A DNA stretch of 64,000 bases, from NCBI RefSeq assembly GCF_009725985.1, contig NZ_RCNR01000002.1, positions 1 to 64,000 on the forward strand, read 5' to 3'. Both the position numbers and the translations under genes were made by a program. The notes beneath the pieces were generated by a model. That model had not been told where the DNA came from. It ran no database searches and saw only the letters and a program-made list of their open reading frames with translations. This document shows, in pieces, positions 52,987-62,306 of the stretch. The first letter of the stretch is position 1. Each line of letters starts with the position of its first letter. Source of the stretch: Zobellia amurskyensis (GTDB lineage: Bacteria; Bacteroidota; Bacteroidia; Flavobacteriales; Flavobacteriaceae).

Positions 52987-53100
52987 TTGAATAAAATGTT
53001 GACTCATAAGTCAGTTTTCGTCAATAATTGTGGGTGCTAGGGGCTACTTCCTTAACATAGATATAAGTAACGGCCACTTCTTTGTTAAAAGGCAAAAACG

Positions 53101-53108
53101 TACCTTTG
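53101..53108 (+). promoter_or_regulatory. -7 promoter element (TACCTTTG) of uvrA
   Basis: Exact TAnnTTTG match 17 bases before the ATG at 53126. TTTG at 53081-53084 is a possible -33 box with a short 16-base gap. The element lies inside the open extension of the uvrA frame and supports the start at 53126. Confidence 0.5.
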
Positions 53109-53125
53109 CAACTTTGCTATTGAAA

Positions 53126-55966
53126 ATGATAAACTACGAAGAAAATATTGAGGTTCAGGGTGCTCGCGTCCATAACCTTAAAAACATAGATGTTACTATA
53201 CCAAGAGAAAAACTGGTGGTTATAACCGGACTTTCTGGAAGTGGAAAGTCCTCCCTAGCCTTTGATACGATTTATGCCGAGGGGCAACGTCGTTATATAG
53301 AAACGTTTTCGGCCTACGCGAGACAGTTTCTAGGAGGATTGGAAAGACCTGATGTTGATAAAATAGATGGTCTTTCTCCCGTTATCGCCATTGAGCAGAA
53401 AACGACATCAAAATCTCCTCGGTCTACTGTTGGTACCATCACAGAGATTTATGACTTTCTTCGTCTACTTTTTGCACGAGCTGGTGACGCCTATAGCTAT
53501 AACACAGGTGAGAAAATGGTAAGTTATAGTGACGAGCAGATTAAAGAGCTTATTAAAAAGGATTATAACGGAAAGAAAATCAATATTCTAGCTCCCGTTA
53601 TCAAATCTAGAAAAGGTCATTACCGTGAGCTTTTTGAACAAATTGCTAAACAAGGTTTTGTAAAAGTCCGTGTTGATGGTGAAGTAAAGGATATTGTCAA
53701 GGGAATGAAAGCGGATCGTTACAAGACCCATGACATAGAGATTGTAATTGATCGCTTAAAAGTGGTTGATTCCGAGGATATGGATAAACGGCTTGCCGAA
53801 ACATTACACACGGCCATGTATAGTGGAGACAATGTGCTTATGGTCTTGGAAGAAGGTCAATCGGTAGCACGGTATTTTAGCCGTGATCTAATGTGTCCAA
53901 CAACTGGTATCTCCTACCCTGTTCCTGAGCCAAATACGTTTTCGTTCAACTCCCCTAAAGGAATGTGCCCCAACTGTAACGGATTGGGTCATGTGTACGA
54001 AGTAAACGAGAAAAAGATTTTCCCCAATAAGGCACTATCCATTAAATCTGGTGGGATTGCACCTTTGGGAGATTACAAAAGCTCATGGGCATTTAAACAG
54101 ATAGAGACGATAGCAAAACGTTATGAATTTGAGCTAACTGACCCTATTTCAAAAATATCCGACGAGGCCATTGATGTATTACTAAACGGTGGACACGAAA
54201 GTTTTGAGGTAGATTCCAAGAGCTTAGGTGTAAAGCGTAATTATAAAATAGATTACGAAGGTATAGCCAACTTCATAAAGAACCAATATGAGGAAGCAGG
54301 CACCACGGCATTAAAACGTTGGGCTAAGGAATATATGGACAAAATTATCTGTCCGGTATGTGATGGTTCTCGTTTACGAAAAGAATCGCTCAATTTTAAA
54401 ATCGAAGAAAAAAATATTGCGGAACTTGCGCATTTGGATATTGCGGAACTTGCTAATTTCTTCAAAGGATTAGAAAAAAAATTAGAGGGAAATCAACTTA
54501 AAATTGCCGAAGAAATTATTAAAGAAATACGAACGCGTATTCAGTTTCTTTTGGATGTTGGTCTTGATTACCTATCCCTTAACAGAAGTTCAAAATCACT
54601 ATCTGGTGGCGAAGCTCAGCGTATACGTTTGGCTACACAGATAGGTTCTCAATTGGTTGGTGTACTTTATATCTTAGATGAACCTAGTATTGGATTGCAT
54701 CAAAGAGACAATTCTCGGTTAATAAAGTCATTAGAAGCGCTTCGGGATATAGGTAACTCGGTAATTGTGGTAGAACATGATCGAGATATGATTGAATGTG
54801 CCGATCATGTAATTGATATAGGCCCCAGAGCGGGAAAACATGGGGGCGAAATAATTTCACAAGGCCCCCCAGAGGAGCTAAAGAACGAGAATACCCTTAC
54901 GGCGGATTACATCACCGGAAAAAAACAAATTGCTGTTCCGGATGAACGGAGAAAAGGGAATGGTAAAAAAATTACCCTTTCGGGTTGTACCGGAAATAAT
55001 TTAAAGAATGTTTCCGTAACCTTTCCATTGGGTCAAATGATCGGAGTTACAGGAGTTTCTGGTAGTGGTAAATCTACCTTAATAAACGAGACGCTTTACC
55101 CTATAATGAATGCCCATTATTTTAATGGTGTGAAGAAACCTATGCCCTATAAAAAAATTACGGGTCTAGAACATATTGACAAGGTGATTGACATCAATCA
55201 ATCTCCCATAGGACGAACACCAAGGTCAAACCCGGCTACATATACCGGAGTTTTTGGAGAAATTCGTTCGTTGTTCTCAAAAACTCCTGAGGCAGCCATT
55301 AGAGGTTACAAACCAGGCCGGTTCAGTTTTAATGTAAAAGGTGGGCGTTGTGAAACTTGTCAAGGTGGCGGTCTACGGGTTATTGAAATGAACTTCTTGC
55401 CCGATGTGTATGTAGAATGCGAAACTTGTAACGGAAAAAGGTTTAATAGAGAAACTCTAGAAATACGTTACAAAGGCAAATCTATTGCCGATGTTTTAGA
55501 GATGACAATTAACGAAGCTGTCGATTTTTTTGAACTTATACCTAAAATTTATCGTAAGTTGAAGACCATTCAAGATGTTGGATTGGGGTATATTTCGTTA
55601 GGACAACAGTCCACTACGCTTTCAGGAGGTGAAGCTCAACGGATTAAGTTGGCAACTGAACTATCTAAACGAGATACGGGTAATACTTTTTATATCTTGG
55701 ATGAACCTACAACAGGACTTCATTTTGAGGATATTCGTGTTTTAATGGAAGTTTTAACCCGTTTAGTAGACAAAGGAAATACCATATTGGTCATTGAACA
55801 TAATATGGACGTTATTAAAATGGCGGATTATATTATCGATATAGGTTACGAAGGTGGTCGTGGAGGCGGAAAAGTTGTGGCCAAAGGAACCCCGGAAGAA
55901 GTAGCTCAGGATAAAAAGAGCTATACGGCCAAATATTTGAGACCAGAATTAAATATTCCTGACTAA
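53126..55966 (+). CDS. uvrA: Excinuclease ABC subunit A
   Basis: The damage-recognition ATPase of nucleotide excision repair, acting with UvrB on DNA. 946 residues, a normal length. Two ABC ATPase halves each carry a Walker A (G-L-S-G-S-G-K-S-S and G-V-S-G-S-G-K-S-T) and an L-S-G-G-E-A-Q-R signature. Zinc-finger Cys pairs are C-P-N-C in the first half and C-E-T-C in the second. The frame is open 32 codons upstream from a TTG at 53030, but that part contains the promoter element and is not family-like. Placement after the S24 repressor/radical SAM genes suggests a DNA-damage block, though uvrA has its own promoter. Confidence 0.97.
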
Positions 55967-56178: not shown

Positions 56179-56865
56179 ATGAGAAAAGAACAACACCATA
56201 AAGGTTGGAACGAAATAAAAACTAACGATTCTTGGGCCATATTTAAAATTATGGGCGAATTTGTTATGGGATTTGAAAAAATGGGGTCTATTGGTCCCTG
56301 CGTTTCTATTTTTGGTTCTGCCCGAACTAAAGAAGGCGATAAATACTATGAATTGGCCGTTAGCATAGCCAAAAGCATTGCGGATGCTGGTTATGGCGTA
56401 ATAACCGGAGGTGGTCCAGGAATAATGGAGGCCGGGAACAAAGGTGCTCATTTGGCAGGCGGTACTTCAGTTGGTTTAAATATAGATTTACCGTTCGAGC
56501 AGCATGACAATCCTTATATTGATTCAGATAAAAGCTTAGATTTTGATTACTTTTTCGTGAGAAAGGTAATGTTCGTGAAATATTCGCAAGGCTTTGTAGT
56601 TATGCCTGGTGGCTTCGGTACTTTGGATGAACTTTTTGAGGCCATCACTCTTATTCAAACCAATAAAATTGAGAAATTCCCAATAATTCTTGTTGGGAGT
56701 GAATTTTGGACCGGTCTTATGGATTGGATTAAGAACACTATGTTAGAAGTGAAAAATATAAGTGCTCACGATCTGGACCTCATTAAAATTGCCGATACGG
56801 AAGATGAAGTAGTAGACATTATTGATGCGTTCTACAAGGGCCGAAACTTGAGTCCTAATTTTTAA
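56179..56865 (+). CDS. LOG-family protein (TIGR00730 Rossmann fold)
   Basis: A 228-residue Rossmann-fold protein with G-G-G-P-G-I-M-E-A near residues 75-83 and P-G-G-F-G-T-L-D-E near 138-146. This is the LOG/lysine-decarboxylase-like signature, the phosphoribohydrolase active site. Such enzymes release cytokinin-like bases or hydrolyse nucleotide 5'-monophosphates. The physiological substrate in bacteria is often unknown. It lies nine bases upstream of the large M1-like gene, so the two are probably co-transcribed. Confidence 0.9.
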   Translation: MRKEQHHKGWNEIKTNDSWAIFKIMGEFVMGFEKMGSIGPCVSIFGSARTKEGDKYYELAVSIAKSIADAGYGVITGGGPGIMEAGNKGAHLAGGTSVGLNIDLPFEQHDNPYIDSDKSLDFDYFFVRKVMFVKYSQGFVVMPGGFGTLDELFEAITLIQTNKIEKFPIILVGSEFWTGLMDWIKNTMLEVKNISAHDLDLIKIADTEDEVVDIIDAFYKGRNLSPNF

Positions 56866-56873
56866 TATCGCTT

Positions 56874-59729
56874 TTGAAAATTAAATCCCTCATATGTTAT
56901 TTTTATCTCGGAACCCTTCTTTTGGGCGGTTTCGGTCAGGTATTTGCGCAGCATCAAAATATACTTACGGCTACGCTTGATGGTCAGAGTAAGGAAATAC
57001 ATGTGCAACAAGAGTTCGTCTATGAGAACAATTCGGACGTTAGGCTAAATACGTTGTATTTTAATGATTGGGCACATGCCTATGCCAGTAAAAATACGGG
57101 ATTGGCCAAGCGTTTTTCCGAAGAGTTCAAAAAAAGTCTTCACTTGGCCAAAAAACAGGAAAGAGGCTACACCAGTATTATAAGTGCTGTTGACAGTGAA
57201 TATAGAGGGCTACATTGGCGACGTACCACAGGTGAAGATTTGTTGAAAATAGATTTGAACAGTCCGTTGCCTCCAGGTGAATCCGCTAAACTTTTCTTAA
57301 CCTATACCATAAAGCTTCCAGAGAACAAGTTTACACCTTATGGCTATGACAAGAAAAAGAACAGTTATTATCTAAAAGACTGGTATTTGACACCTTCTTA
57401 TTTTGATGGTGCATGGCATTTATATTCCAACAAAAATCTAGAAGATCTTTATACAGGAGTTACTGAAACCACAGTGAATTTTGTTTATCCCAATAATTTA
57501 AACTTAGCTACTAATTTTACGGTACTTGGGGATAATACAATATCGAACGGGCAAATGGCCCAGTTAACCGCCGAACAACAGAAGAGCTGTGAAATTTTGC
57601 TCAGTCCAGAGAAGCGGTTTATGACCCATGTTACTCCGCAAATTACCGTAATTACGGATATAGAGGCTTTTAAATATGAAGATATTTTTAAAGGTTTGTC
57701 CATAAATAGGGTAACCGAGTTTATAGAAAATAACTTAGGGGAGTATCCGCACAGGCAGTTGCTTGTGAGTCAATTGGATTATGAAAAAAATCCATTGTAC
57801 GGTATCAATCAATTACCTTCATTTATAAGACCGTACGAAGAGCAGTTTCAATTTGAAATGAAATTTTTAAAAACTGCCCTTATTAATATTTTGGAAGAAA
57901 GTCTCTTCTTAGACCCCAGAAAGGAACAGTGGCTGAGTGATGCAATCGCCAACTATCTCATGATAGAGTTTGTAAATGAATATTATCCCGATCAAAAATT
58001 GCTTGGGAAATTATCTAAAATATGGGGAATAAGGAGTTTTAATCTAGCAAAGATGGATTTTAATGAACAATATCCATTTTTATACATGCTTACGGCTCGT
58101 ACCAATTTAGACCAACCGCTTAGCACCAGTAATGATTCCCTGATTAAATTTAATCAAAAAATAGCTAATAAATACAAGGCCGGATTAGGCCTCGCCTACC
58201 TAGCTAGTTATATTGGCAAGGACAAAGTAGATAAGAGTATCAAGACCTTCTACAAGCATTATAAGCTTAGTCAAGTAAAGACTTTAGATTTTGAATCGAT
58301 ACTTAAAAGATCTACCAATGCTGATGTTGATTGGTTTTTTCAAGACTTTGTTACTACAGATCGCAAAATAGATTTCAAGATTAAAAAAATAGAAAAAACA
58401 AAAGATTCGCTTAGAGTAACCATAAAGAACAAAAAAGGTACCAATGTGCCTATCTCTATGTTTGGGCTAAAGAATGATTCCGTAGTTTCAAAATATTGGT
58501 TTTCTGGCATAAACGATATTAAAACCGTTACTATTCCTAAGAATGATGAAAAGCGACTGGTTTTGAATTATGATCAGAAAATTCCTGAATTCAACCAACG
58601 GGACAACTGGAAGTCATTAGGCGGCTTTTTCTCAGGAAACAAGAAGCTAAAATTTACTTTCTTCCGTGATTCGGAAAACCCATACTATAATCAGGTTTTC
58701 TATGTTCCCATTCTCAACTTTAATATTTATGATGGATGGACGCCCGGGATGCGCCTATACAACAAAACCCTGTTAGAACGACCTTTCGTATACGATTTTG
58801 CCCCCTCCTATTCGTTTAGGGAAAAAGCGTTTGTAGGGTCTGGGAGAATCTCATACCGAAAGTATCTTAGTAAAAGTGGACTCTATTTAGCTAACTATAG
58901 TATTGGTGGATCCACATATCATTTTCAAGAAAATTCTCGATACTCAACCATAACCCCATCTATTACTTTTGGGTGGAGACCGGCCAACCTCATATCTAAT
59001 AAGAGGGAGTTTCTTCGTTTTAGATATGTAAATGTATTAAGGGATAAGGCAGAGAGTTTAGGCGATTTTGAAACACCACCGGATTACAGTATTTTAAATG
59101 CCAGATATACCAATAGAAACCCAGGTATCATTAATTATGTTTCATGGTTTGCAGATGCACAACATGCTAGCGACTTTACCAAAGTAGCTTTTGAACTAGA
59201 GTATCGAAAATTATTTGAAAGCAACCGTCAATTCAATTTCCGGTTCTACACAGGTAAATTCATCAGAAATAAAACTACAGATTATAAAGATCCGCACTAT
59301 TATAGTTTTGCATTAGACCGTCCTACCGACTATTTATTCGATTATGGTTACTTGGGTCGTTCGGAAGATTCAGGTATTTATAGTCAACAAATTATTATTG
59401 CCGAAGGTGGTTTCAAATCGTTTCTTCCCCAAGAATATCGCTTTGCCAATGATTATCTTACCACAATAAATACAAGCGTAAATTTATGGAAGTGGATTGA
59501 AGTCTATAGTGATTTGGGGTTTGTGAAAAATAAGGGTGTTAGCGGAAAGTTCGTATATGACTCAGGGGTTAGATTAAACCTTTTAACGGATTATTTTGAA
59601 CTCTATCTTCCCGTATATTCCAATAATGGTTGGGAAGTTTCACAACCTGACTATGGAGAGAAGATTAGATTTATTGTCACGGTGAGTCCTAAAACTTTAA
59701 TTGGCCTCTTTACAAGAAAATGGTTTTAG
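56874..59729 (+). CDS. M1-peptidase-like protein with C-terminal outer-membrane barrel, HExxH lost
   Basis: A 951-residue exported protein (signal L-G-T-L-L-L-G-G-F-G-Q-V-F-A-Q). It starts at a TTG, as the signal peptide lies directly after it and no ATG is near. Residues about 30-500 follow the M1 aminopeptidase layout. L-T-P-S-Y-F-D-G-A-W and W-L-S-D-A-I-A-N-Y-L are present, but the expected HExxH zinc site is replaced by N-I-L-E-E-S-L near residue 340. From about 590 to the end the sequence is amphipathic strands with a terminal Phe (R-K-W-F), as in an outer-membrane beta-barrel. It is likely a catalytically dead surface-linked relative; the role is unknown. Confidence 0.7.
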   Translation: MKIKSLICYFYLGTLLLGGFGQVFAQHQNILTATLDGQSKEIHVQQEFVYENNSDVRLNTLYFNDWAHAYASKNTGLAKRFSEEFKKSLHLAKKQERGYTSIISAVDSEYRGLHWRRTTGEDLLKIDLNSPLPPGESAKLFLTYTIKLPENKFTPYGYDKKKNSYYLKDWYLTPSYFDGAWHLYSNKNLEDLYTGVTETTVNFVYPNNLNLATNFTVLGDNTISNGQMAQLTAEQQKSCEILLSPEKRFMTHVTPQITVITDIEAFKYEDIFKGLSINRVTEFIENNLGEYPHRQLLVSQLDYEKNPLYGINQLPSFIRPYEEQFQFEMKFLKTALINILEESLFLDPRKEQWLSDAIANYLMIEFVNEYYPDQKLLGKLSKIWGIRSFNLAKMDFNEQYPFLYMLTARTNLDQPLSTSNDSLIKFNQKIANKYKAGLGLAYLASYIGKDKVDKSIKTFYKHYKLSQVKTLDFESILKRSTNADVDWFFQDFVTTDRKIDFKIKKIEKTKDSLRVTIKNKKGTNVPISMFGLKNDSVVSKYWFSGINDIKTVTIPKNDEKRLVLNYDQKIPEFNQRDNWKSLGGFFSGNKKLKFTFFRDSENPYYNQVFYVPILNFNIYDGWTPGMRLYNKTLLERPFVYDFAPSYSFREKAFVGSGRISYRKYLSKSGLYLANYSIGGSTYHFQENSRYSTITPSITFGWRPANLISNKREFLRFRYVNVLRDKAESLGDFETPPDYSILNARYTNRNPGIINYVSWFADAQHASDFTKVAFELEYRKLFESNRQFNFRFYTGKFIRNKTTDYKDPHYYSFALDRPTDYLFDYGYLGRSEDSGIYSQQIIIAEGGFKSFLPQEYRFANDYLTTINTSVNLWKWIEVYSDLGFVKNKGVSGKFVYDSGVRLNLLTDYFELYLPVYSNNGWEVSQPDYGEKIRFIVTVSPKTLIGLFTRKWF

Positions 59730-59894: not shown

Positions 59895-62306
59895 ATGGAT
59901 ACTTCGCCTAAAACAAGTAACGATATTACGTTTGATGATTTTAAAACCCAGATTATAAGTGACTATAAAGTTGCTGTTCTAAGCAGAACCTGTAGTCTAT
60001 TGGGGAGAAAAGAAGTTTTGACCGGTAAGGCAAAATTTGGAATCTTCGGAGATGGAAAAGAGTTGCCACAATTGGCCATGGCCAGGTCATTCAAAGATGG
60101 AGATTTTAGGAGTGGCTATTACCGAGACCAGACCTTTATGATGGCTTTGGGACTGTTGACTCCAAAAGATATTTTCCACGGTCTTTACGCCACTACCGAT
60201 ATTGAAAAGGAACCTATGAGTGCAGGTCGTCAAATGGGCGGTCATTATGTAACTCACAGTCTGAATGAAGATGGAAGTTGGAAAAACTTAGCCAAACAAA
60301 AGAATAGTAGTGCCGATATTTCCTGTACAGCAGGTCAGATGCCAAGATTATTAGGTCTTGCGCAAGCTTCCAAAATGTATAGGAATTTGGACGGTGTGGA
60401 TGCCACAAACTTCTCGGACAAGGGTAACGAAGTTGCTTGGGGAACTATAGGAAACGCCAGTACCAGTGAAGGTATGTTTCTAGAGACCATAAATGCCGCA
60501 GGAGTGCTCCAAGTACCTATGGTAATTAGTATTTGGGATGATGAATACGGTATTTCGGTACCTGCAAAATACCACACGACCAAGGAAGATATTTCGGAAA
60601 TACTCAGTGGCTTCAAACGTACCGAAGAACATGATGGTTACGAAATATTTAAAGTAAAAGGTTGGGATTATACCGCGCTTATGCATGCCTATGAGAATGC
60701 ATCCGATATAGCAAGGGATGAGCACGTTCCAGTTATTATTCACGTTACAGAACTTACACAGCCACAAGGGCATTCTTCTTCCGGTTCTCACGAACGTTAT
60801 AAAAATGGAGATAGACTGGACTGGGAAAAAGAAAATGATTGCAATAAACGATTCCGGGAGTGGATTTTGGAAACAGGAATTACCACTGACGAAGAGCTTA
60901 AAGCAATTGAAAAAAATATTGTTAGAGAAGTACGTTCCGCAAAAAGAGAAGCTTGGTCCGAGTATTTAGAGAATCACAAAGCACTTAAAAAGCATTTGGT
61001 TGTATTGCTTGATAAAGCATCCGTTAAAAGTCAGAACAAAAACTTTATCGTAAAAGTAAAAAACGATCTTATTGCAATAGAGGAACCTATTAAAAAGGAT
61101 TTAGCCGTAAGTTCTAGAAAAGCCTTGAGATACTTAATAGGAGAATCATTTCCTGAGAAACAAGAGCTTTTACAATGGACAAACACTTTTCTGAAAGAAA
61201 CGCAACCCCTATACAGTGCCAACCTTTATAATGATGGGCCTACAGGAGCATTAAGCGTTAAAGAGGTTAAACCGGTCTATGCAGACGATTTTGAAAATGT
61301 TGATGGTAGGGTTATCCTTAGAGATAATTTTGATAAAATATTTGAGAAGTATCCGAACGCTTTAGTTTTTGGGGAGGATAGTGGTGCTATAGGCGATGTA
61401 AACCAAGGACTTGAAGGGCTTCAGAATAAATATGGGAAATTTAGGGTAGCTGATACCGGTATACGTGAGACCACTATTATAGGGCAAGGTACAGGTATGG
61501 CAATGAGAGGGCTTCGGCCAATTGCCGAAATACAATACCTAGATTATATATTTTATGCTTTGGCAACCCTAACCGATGATGTAGCCTGTTTGAGATACCG
61601 TACTGCCGGGAAACAAAAAGCGCCTTTAATCGTAAGAACAAGAGGGCATCGCCTAGAGGGGATCTGGCACTCAGGTTCTCCCATGGGAACACTTATTCAC
61701 TCTCTACGTGGCATGTATATTTTATCGCCTAGAAACATGACACAAGCAGCTGGTTTCTACAATACTCTTTTAAAAACAGACGAACCTGCTTTGGTAATCG
61801 AAAGTTTGAATGGATACCGATTAAAAGAACAAAAGCCAGTAAACCTAGGAGAGTTTTGCACTCCTATAGGTAAGGTTGAAACCATAAAAGAAGGAACTGA
61901 TATAACCATGGTTTCTTATGGCTCCACACTTAGAATTGTTCTACAAGCAGCAGAAGAATTAAAAGAAGTAGGTATTGATGCTGAAGTTATAGATGCACAG
62001 ACCTTACTACCTTTTGATGTACATCATGATACACTGGAAAGTGTTAAGAAAACCAATAGACTATTGGTCATAGACGAAGATGTTCCTGGTGGTTGTTCCG
62101 CTTATTTACTTAATGAAATCATTGAAAAGCAAGGGGCTTATGCTTATTTAGATTCAGCACCGCAAACTTTGAGTGCCCAAGCGCACAGACCAGCTTACGG
62201 AACGGACGGTGATTATTTTTCAAAGCCAAATGCTGAAGATATTTTTGAAAAAGTATATACTATTATGAATGAATTAGATCCAGAAAACTTTCCAAAATTA
62301 CGCTAA
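59895..62306 (+). CDS. Fused 2-oxoacid dehydrogenase E1 alpha/beta (branched-chain type)
   Basis: An 803-residue thiamine-diphosphate enzyme. It decarboxylates 2-oxoacids (probably branched-chain, from Val/Ile/Leu) and hands the acyl group to an E2 subunit. The alpha half (about 1-370) has a T-x-G-N-A-S-T-S-E-G-M segment near 195 and P-V-I-I-H-V near 280. The beta half (about 460-800) has V-F-G-E-D-S-G-A-I-G-D-V near 492, A-E-I-Q-Y-L-D-Y near 543 and R-T-R-G-H-R-L-E near 580. Alpha-beta fusion is common in this phylum. No E2 or E3 gene is adjacent. It has its own promoter. Confidence 0.9.
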   Translation: MDTSPKTSNDITFDDFKTQIISDYKVAVLSRTCSLLGRKEVLTGKAKFGIFGDGKELPQLAMARSFKDGDFRSGYYRDQTFMMALGLLTPKDIFHGLYATTDIEKEPMSAGRQMGGHYVTHSLNEDGSWKNLAKQKNSSADISCTAGQMPRLLGLAQASKMYRNLDGVDATNFSDKGNEVAWGTIGNASTSEGMFLETINAAGVLQVPMVISIWDDEYGISVPAKYHTTKEDISEILSGFKRTEEHDGYEIFKVKGWDYTALMHAYENASDIARDEHVPVIIHVTELTQPQGHSSSGSHERYKNGDRLDWEKENDCNKRFREWILETGITTDEELKAIEKNIVREVRSAKREAWSEYLENHKALKKHLVVLLDKASVKSQNKNFIVKVKNDLIAIEEPIKKDLAVSSRKALRYLIGESFPEKQELLQWTNTFLKETQPLYSANLYNDGPTGALSVKEVKPVYADDFENVDGRVILRDNFDKIFEKYPNALVFGEDSGAIGDVNQGLEGLQNKYGKFRVADTGIRETTIIGQGTGMAMRGLRPIAEIQYLDYIFYALATLTDDVACLRYRTAGKQKAPLIVRTRGHRLEGIWHSGSPMGTLIHSLRGMYILSPRNMTQAAGFYNTLLKTDEPALVIESLNGYRLKEQKPVNLGEFCTPIGKVETIKEGTDITMVSYGSTLRIVLQAAEELKEVGIDAEVIDAQTLLPFDVHHDTLESVKKTNRLLVIDEDVPGGCSAYLLNEIIEKQGAYAYLDSAPQTLSAQAHRPAYGTDGDYFSKPNAEDIFEKVYTIMNELDPENFPKLR

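Follow-up and report, generated by a model that had tools for sequence, protein, structure and literature searches.

Among described proteins, those closest in layout to the one considered here are Omp85 proteins that carry an enzyme domain. In PlpD, a patatin-Omp85 protein of P. aeruginosa, an N-terminal enzyme fold sits on a 16-strand Omp85 barrel, and a later report places the patatin domain only in the periplasm (PMC11116518). A 2014 classification distinguishes ten Omp85 subfamilies, of which some lack POTRA domains, and the metal-enzyme domain of its metalloprotease ('Metallo') class is PF00149 (Pfam Metallophos); the main text of that paper contains neither an M1 class nor any word beginning with 'peptidase' (PMC4104836). 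We describe here a gene of Zobellia amurskyensis, found in a window of 64,000 nucleotides (contig NZ_RCNR01000002.1, positions 1 to 64,000), whose 951-amino-acid product is predicted to join an M1-aminopeptidase fold with a lost zinc site to a C-terminal barrel of Omp85 type. The patatin lipase domain and the POTRA domain that characterize PlpD are both missing from this protein, which has an M1 fold and a dead site instead, and the M1 fold likewise sets it apart from the Metallo subfamily with its PF00149 domain. As far as the main text of the 2014 classification goes, an M1-Omp85 fusion is a class missing from it (PMC4104836), and none is described among the open-licence titles and abstract openings of the literature matches listed.

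The M1 relationship is faint in the single sequence and clear in profiles and in the predicted structure. Residues 352-491 match the Pfam model PF01433 with an E-value of 4.1e-5 and 23.7 bits, below the cut-off of 27.7 bits, and the score was 27.1 bits in a genome search and 27.9 bits when the protein was scanned with its neighbours. The window protein sequence alone retrieved no M1 entry from the PDB at an E-value of 1, and NCBIfam gave zero matches. By contrast, a profile built from 109 homologues, including 41 active ones, matches M1 aminopeptidases with an E-value of 6e-18. These homologues form alignment A1, in which 41 rows are active and 68 inactive, the latter comprising 40 from Flavobacteriaceae and 28 others. 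A row is labelled active if HExxH occurs anywhere in its sequence, which does not force the presence of the third ligand Glu or of GMEYP. Left out of the alignment were the truncated L143 (inactive rows shorter than 800 amino acids were excluded), duplicates (L119, L122 and L137), short M1 rows (L165-L167 and L180), two active rows with HExxH (L175 and L176) and, by thinning, most near-identical Flavobacteriaceae loci.

A full-length AlphaFold2 model made with A1 as input covers all 951 residues with a mean pLDDT of 93.6 and a pTM of 0.91. Its best structural match is puromycin-sensitive aminopeptidase (Z 23.2 over 478 residues), followed by ERAP1 and tricorn factor F3, and the M1 alignments reach Z scores of about 23 over about 470-480 residues. 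With these enzymes and the two-domain M1 protein of D. radiodurans, the window protein shares an N-terminal beta domain, a catalytic lobe and a second beta domain; it differs from them in having lost the zinc site and GxMEN, and in having gained the C-terminal barrel. An original prediction, made from the sequence, that the gene keeps the M1 framework but is catalytically dead and fused to an outer-membrane-type barrel therefore agrees with the model in both folds.

That prediction was also correct that HExxH is missing, since the motif occurs nowhere in the window protein, but it had looked for the site in the wrong stretch, NILEESL (residues 338-344). In a gap-free part of the alignment with active relatives, the place of HExxH is taken by K333-T334-A335-L336-I337, directly before those residues. 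The same alignment sets D356 at the place of the third ligand Glu and L308-Y-G-I-N312 at that of GMEYP, which we take to be the form that the GxMEN exopeptidase motif has in the active M1-barrel family. Both GMEYP and the third Glu are present in 41 of 41 active rows. All four site residues are gone from 57 of the 68 inactive rows; 10 rows keep one, a single row keeps two, and the full set is found in none. Within the 40 Flavobacteriaceae rows, K333, R349, R409 and Q414 are invariant, Asp occupies the third-ligand place in 35, and the GMEYP place retains Y309 in 38, G310 in 39 and N312 in 36; His is found at position 337 in four.

Judging from the sequences, the loss is not a strain oddity. 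All 138 Flavobacteriaceae loci that were fetched (128 distinct sequences) lack the site, MEYP occurs in 0 of them, and the absence of zinc ligands, which had been proposed as a family-wide check, extends to other families of the order. Three of the 138 loci do contain an HExxH string; we rejected these as live sites, as each is HERGH near residue 95, in the N-terminal domain and away from the site. A replacement site that draws its ligands from another part of the protein, the circumstance that was to count against a dead enzyme, is not evident in the alignment: no His or Cys is among the 120 positions conserved in at least 95% of the 71 Flavobacteriaceae rows used for the conservation scan, a set that includes near-duplicates from overlapping collections, and the nearest candidate, H90, is His in 66 of the 71, so that a site built on H90 is conceivable. 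An M1 fold whose catalytic zinc site has been lost is well supported by the alignments, and neither zinc binding nor peptidase activity would be expected.

The remainder of the protein, its last ~365 residues, is predicted to form a barrel of 16 strands (our count of DSSP elements) with a C-terminal helix. The final residue is Phe, and the earlier reading of the last ~360 residues as a beta-barrel ending in Phe is upheld by the structure prediction that it called for. Because a fold search with the whole model listed only M1 chains, the barrel was modelled separately from an alignment of the barrel alone (A2), with a pLDDT of 93.6 and a pTM of 0.89. All 50 rows that Foldseek listed for this model are, by entry title, BamA/BAM, TamA, SAM or FhaC, with a best E-value of 3.4e-7. 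Realignment of the barrel (VIA) gave a best Z score of 18.1 with D. radiodurans BamA (287 residues aligned, rmsd 4.3), and 50 of 50 listed rows were from BAM, TamA, SAM, TOC, FhaC or CdiB, including the BAM of F. johnsoniae and B. thetaiotaomicron, although this comparison re-aligns Foldseek's own list and so is not independent evidence. A profile of the barrel matches an Omp85 profile over 281 columns with a probability of 80.5 and an E-value of 1.3e-5. Links from sequence only failed: the barrel profile has no PDB sequence match at an E-value of 10, PF01103 (Omp85) is absent from the 20 Pfam families matched by any of the 109 barrel rows at an E-value of 1, and a viral library yielded zero matches at an E-value of 0.001. 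The kinship of the barrel therefore rests on predicted structure and a moderate profile match, from which we class the predicted barrel as Omp85-type, with the 16-strand fold of BamA and TamA.

A 60-residue loop joins strands 11 and 12 in the model, as loop L6 does in Omp85 proteins, so that the predicted barrel resembles those of BamA, TamA, Sam50 and FhaC (Omp85/TpsB) in both its number of strands and its long loop. The loop carries the signature DYLFDYxxLGRSExGxxSQQx5GGFKS. Arg829, in the LGRSE part, is retained in 36 of 41 active rows, in 40 of 40 Flavobacteriaceae rows and in 25 of 28 other inactive rows.

The Pfam scan of the 109 barrel rows found DUF5686 in two (best E-value 8e-4), plus scattered single matches, and the alignment of DUF5686 to the barrel profile spans only 57 columns. 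DUF5686 (PF18939) is itself probably related to Omp85: its profile matches the Omp85 profile with a probability of 94.5. The two Pfam models match adjoining or overlapping stretches in five genomes (G491, G494, G495, G498 and G502).

Fusions of this kind were to be sought across Bacteroidota, and they also occur in other families of the class. For the compared genomes we use the class name Bacteroidia (in the GTDB sense) and the order name Flavobacteriales, which we take from the taxonomy of Zobellia. The best-matching named relatives of the window protein are from Zobellia and are 88-93% identical to it. Strong homologues (E-value below 1e-50) are present in 193 of 199 Flavobacteriaceae genomes, as counted by eye; a match at an E-value of 1e-3 exists in all 199, and the six other genomes have only matches weaker than 1e-12 that resemble other M1 proteins. 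In the class sample, 267 of 295 genomes have a match, a count that includes other M1 proteins, and the strong matches are mostly frames of ~1000 amino acids. The phylum sample has matches in 123 of 198 genomes, and outside the class these include a few frames of ~990 amino acids and shorter ones of 600-690.

Active M1-barrel fusions of the class (such as L149, L163 and L195) share the architecture and can be aligned over their full length, but they keep HExxH...E and GMEYP, and their genes often precede an LpxH-like gene. HExxH is present in 37 of 37 loci fetched from outside the order (L148-L184). All 68 inactive rows of A1 belong to the order of the window, which holds both types. When the active-site columns are excluded, the tree groups the inactive rows in one clade, requiring one change, with SH-aLRT support of 88 (76 rows) or of 100 in a quick tree of 56 rows, which drops the long branches L208 and L184 and 18 others. 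This pattern fits one loss of the zinc site. The clade adjoins the active L195, whose locus (L239) has a dehydrogenase E1 neighbour as in Zobellia, and this shared neighbour fits inactivation in place.

Four genomes of one family in the order have both an active and an inactive gene (L199/L198, L201/L200, L212/L211 and L214/L213); the active genes fall elsewhere in the tree, and hence these pairs are not simple sister duplicates. Within Flavobacteriaceae, no active fusion was recognized among the matches listed, not all of which were read for the site, and in six closely searched genomes the matches other than the window's own gene are frames of 537-790 amino acids. In one Flavobacteriaceae genome, G049, the M1-barrel gene is present twice (L141 and L307), both times without HExxH, and a few homologues (in G083, G110, G122 and G806) have one in-frame stop or lie in two pieces on different contigs.

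The loss of the site is accompanied by a shift in conservation. Among pairs of proteins with 35-50% identity in the barrel, the mean identities of active proteins (25 pairs) are 0.61 in the N-domain, 0.62 in the catalytic lobe and 0.42 in L6. The corresponding values are 0.34, 0.41 and 0.64 for Flavobacteriaceae (305 pairs), and 0.18, 0.25 and 0.55 for other inactive families (162 pairs). Differences persist for all three segments when only disjoint pairs are used (p 2.8e-8, 6.7e-8 and 1.3e-6), although these p values are a rough guide only, as disjoint pairs still share ancestry. Relative to the barrel strands, the identity of the catalytic lobe is +0.195 in active proteins (16 disjoint pairs) and -0.088 in inactive ones (31), with a p value of 6.7e-8, and that of L6 is -0.006 and +0.159, respectively (p 1.3e-6). 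dN/dS was mostly saturated and was little used. In the inactive clade, these identities indicate that constraint has moved from the M1 domain towards loop L6 of the barrel.

One explanation of such a shift is that the M1 domain is a relic in decay, with the barrel as the only part that counts, and its faster divergence in the inactive clade than in active proteins is what this idea would predict. We consider it very unlikely, because the M1 domain is full length in the inactive rows used (rows below 800 amino acids having been left out) and is modelled with high confidence, because K333, R349, R409 and Q414 do not vary among the 40 Flavobacteriaceae rows, and because dN in the M1 part is low (0.049) in the only Zobellia pair with measurable dS, albeit a dS near saturation.

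The domain might instead be a receptor for peptides or protein N-termini, anchored or scaffolded by the barrel, that senses peptides or passes them to active M1 peptidases. The model shows an undamaged M1 fold. Active and inactive rows have Asp413 and Gln414 in common, and Arg409, which does not vary among the 40 Flavobacteriaceae rows, is present in only 15 of 41 active ones. In Flavobacteriaceae the catalytic lobe is as well conserved (0.41) as the first barrel strands (0.37), and Zobellia also has a separate M1 protein of about 620 amino acids with HELAH, which is akin to the M1 portion of the active fusion. On the other hand, the M1 part is eased compared with active proteins, down to 18-25% identity in other inactive families where barrel identity is 35-50%, L6 is the best conserved segment, and GMEYP, the motif that holds the substrate N-terminus in M1 enzymes, is lost. 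The original prediction had offered a peptide receptor or an assembly factor; the shift of conservation towards L6 favours a function of the barrel over a pure peptide receptor, which we regard as unlikely.

The reading that we prefer is that the window protein is an accessory factor in outer-membrane assembly or quality control, in which the dead M1 domain acts as a periplasmic arm of an Omp85-type barrel; we advance it tentatively, as somewhat short of probable. The M1 fold would occupy the place of the periplasmic POTRA domains of most Omp85 proteins. An ancestor of one Flavobacteriales clade would have lost the zinc site, most simply once, while the protein was kept, and, on the periplasmic side, the dead domain may still bind a partner or polypeptide that is unfolded or only partly folded. 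What is bound could then be presented to the barrel, whose loop L6 is now under stronger constraint than any other segment. In this manner, a peptidase attached to an Omp85-type barrel would have become a non-proteolytic factor of outer-membrane biogenesis. Both folds, the missing site, the single-clade pattern, the retention in the family and the shift of constraint come from computation, whereas we infer the outer-membrane location, the periplasmic face, the binding of polypeptide and the role in biogenesis.

A placement of the M1 domain at the inner face of the outer membrane, as originally proposed, would be consistent with Omp85 topology and with PlpD (PMC11116518). The opposite arrangement, in which the M1 domain reaches the cell surface through its own barrel in the manner of type Vd secretion, has a precedent in the first description of PlpD as self-secreting (PMC4104836). 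The later report of the PlpD patatin domain only in the periplasm speaks against this arrangement, as does the lack of an obvious use for a dead enzyme at the surface, and we consider it very improbable.

Several observations weigh against a role in assembly. For the barrel, Foldseek gives modest TM-scores of 0.41-0.52 when these are scaled by query length. The L6 motif (V/I/L)RG(F/Y) of Omp85 proteins is missing, in that only 1 of 109 rows has RG[FY] in L6 and 108 lack it, and the barrel may therefore work differently from BamA. Nor is there a POTRA domain as in BamA, TamA, Sam50 and FhaC: the M1 fold fills residues 27-583, and POTRA families were unmatched in the Pfam scan. In Flavobacteriaceae, identity in the catalytic lobe is slightly above that in the first eleven barrel strands, from which the M1 part appears to be eased relative to active proteins, rather than abandoned. 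PlpD is an Omp85 barrel carrying an enzyme, without a shown role in assembly. BAM purified from F. johnsoniae is reported to contain BamA, D, G, H, M and P, and no M1 protein is named among these subunits (PMC12611786). Available portions of a paper on TamL (PMC12045153) and of a 2026 review of BAM (PMC13067283) do not mention an M1-barrel protein. The Bacteroidota BAM was itself recently found to be extensively modified, a need that the authors of that study ascribe to outer-membrane proteins of unusual complexity (PMC12611786).

If the assembly reading is right, the family would be a natural before-and-after series in which selection shifted from an enzyme domain to the L6 loop of a barrel. 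An Omp85-type protein that has a pseudopeptidase in place of POTRA domains, and that is present in nearly all sampled Flavobacteriaceae, is a candidate factor in the biogenesis of the outer membrane. Comparison of the active with the inactive clade would allow a direct test of whether a protease-linked factor can turn into one devoted purely to assembly, for which the L6 signature and the invariant K333 supply point targets. Positions of the gene, its parts and its neighbours are given in Table 1.

Table 1. The M1-barrel gene, the segments of its product and adjacent genes, in positions of the window
Feature	Position	Strand	Remarks
uvrA	53030..55966	+	Conserved neighbour; name recognized from sequence
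LOG-family gene (TIGR00730)	56179..56865	+	Directly upstream; a neighbour, outside the proposed system
M1-like pseudopeptidase with predicted Omp85-type barrel	56874..59729	+	951 amino acids; TTG start
Probable signal peptide, residues 1-25 (...GFGQVFA/QHQN)	56874..56948	+	Judged by eye from the sequence and some homologue N-termini
Predicted M1-peptidase fold, residues 27-583 (N-terminal beta domain, helical catalytic lobe, beta domain)	56952..58622	+	Boundaries set by the authors
LYGIN, residues 308-312, at the place of GMEYP	57795..57809	+	Alignment A1
KTALI, residues 333-337, at the place of HExxH	57870..57884	+	Alignment with active relatives
NILEESL, residues 338-344	57885..57905	+	Directly after the HExxH equivalent
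D356, at the place of the third zinc ligand Glu	57939..57941	+	Alignment A1
Predicted Omp85-type barrel, residues 585-951 (16 strands, 605-935; C-terminal helix, 939-948)	58626..59726	+	Predicted model
Long loop between strands 11 and 12, residues 800-860, at the Omp85 L6 position	59271..59453	+	Model and conservation
2-oxoacid dehydrogenase E1 (alpha-beta fusion)	59895..62306	+	Conserved downstream; family by scan of the L228 homologue

The genes next to active and inactive members of the family differ. For active-type genes, 40 other families of the class contributed one locus each. Of these loci 39 were scored, L364 having no frame with GMEYP, and all 39 carry both GMEYP and HExxH. The next downstream frame is an LpxH-like gene in 23 of the 39, and in 13 of these 23 it overlaps or follows within 5 bases (for example, L241:6943-7692). 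The LpxH-like proteins match models of UDP-2,3-diacylglucosamine diphosphatase with an E-value of 4.5e-27, below the curated cut-off, and their nine PDB sequence matches are all LpxH. In 18 of the 39 loci (L329, L337, L344 and others), the frame directly upstream encodes a redoxin-like protein that contains CxPC and belongs with the DUF4369-redoxin proteins scanned from L242 and L243 in one family; most are probably lipoproteins, to judge by eye from a Cys close to the N-terminus.

Gene order of this kind raises the alternative of a barrel that moves lipid or LPS precursors, or inserts them, with the M1-like domain docking a periplasmic partner. The LpxH family belongs to lipid A synthesis, and the wall of an Omp85 barrel has a lateral seam that borders the membrane. 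However, LpxH acts at the inner membrane and in the cytosol, and gene adjacency is weak evidence. The LpxH-like gene of Zobellia sits on a different contig from the M1-barrel gene, and inactive-type loci have an LpxH-like gene in 0 of 91 cases. We therefore think a role in lipid transport quite unlikely for the window protein. A redoxin-like stretch occurs in 1 of the 91 (L227, in a different short frame). This near-absence also bears on the assembly reading, to which it is unfavourable, because the context of active genes is not directly transferable to the inactive type. A broader form of the assembly reading, on which we are more reserved than hopeful, would be that a distinct Omp85 architecture, widespread among Bacteroidota, having an aminopeptidase for POTRA and tied to LpxH by gene order, gave rise through one loss of the zinc site in one Flavobacteriales clade to a near-universal non-proteolytic factor of assembly or insertion.

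Inactive genes have neighbours of their own. The original prediction had pointed to pairing at nine bases with a LOG-family gene; such a gene does lie directly upstream, but the gap between its stop and the start of the M1-barrel gene is 8 bases (56866-56873). Of 80 close loci, 76 have a LOG gene on the same strand no more than 400 bases upstream, and in one more it overlaps by 3 bases in the alignment. The pairing occurs in 0 of 9 loci with an active gene (L238-L246). Being limited to Flavobacteriaceae and near kin, it says little about function, and we dropped it as a functional clue. uvrA is present in 76 of the 80 close loci and the dehydrogenase in 79, with some loci ending at contig edges. 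The TTG start of the M1-barrel gene, at 56874, is separated by five codons from the preceding in-frame stop, and none of the five is ATG.

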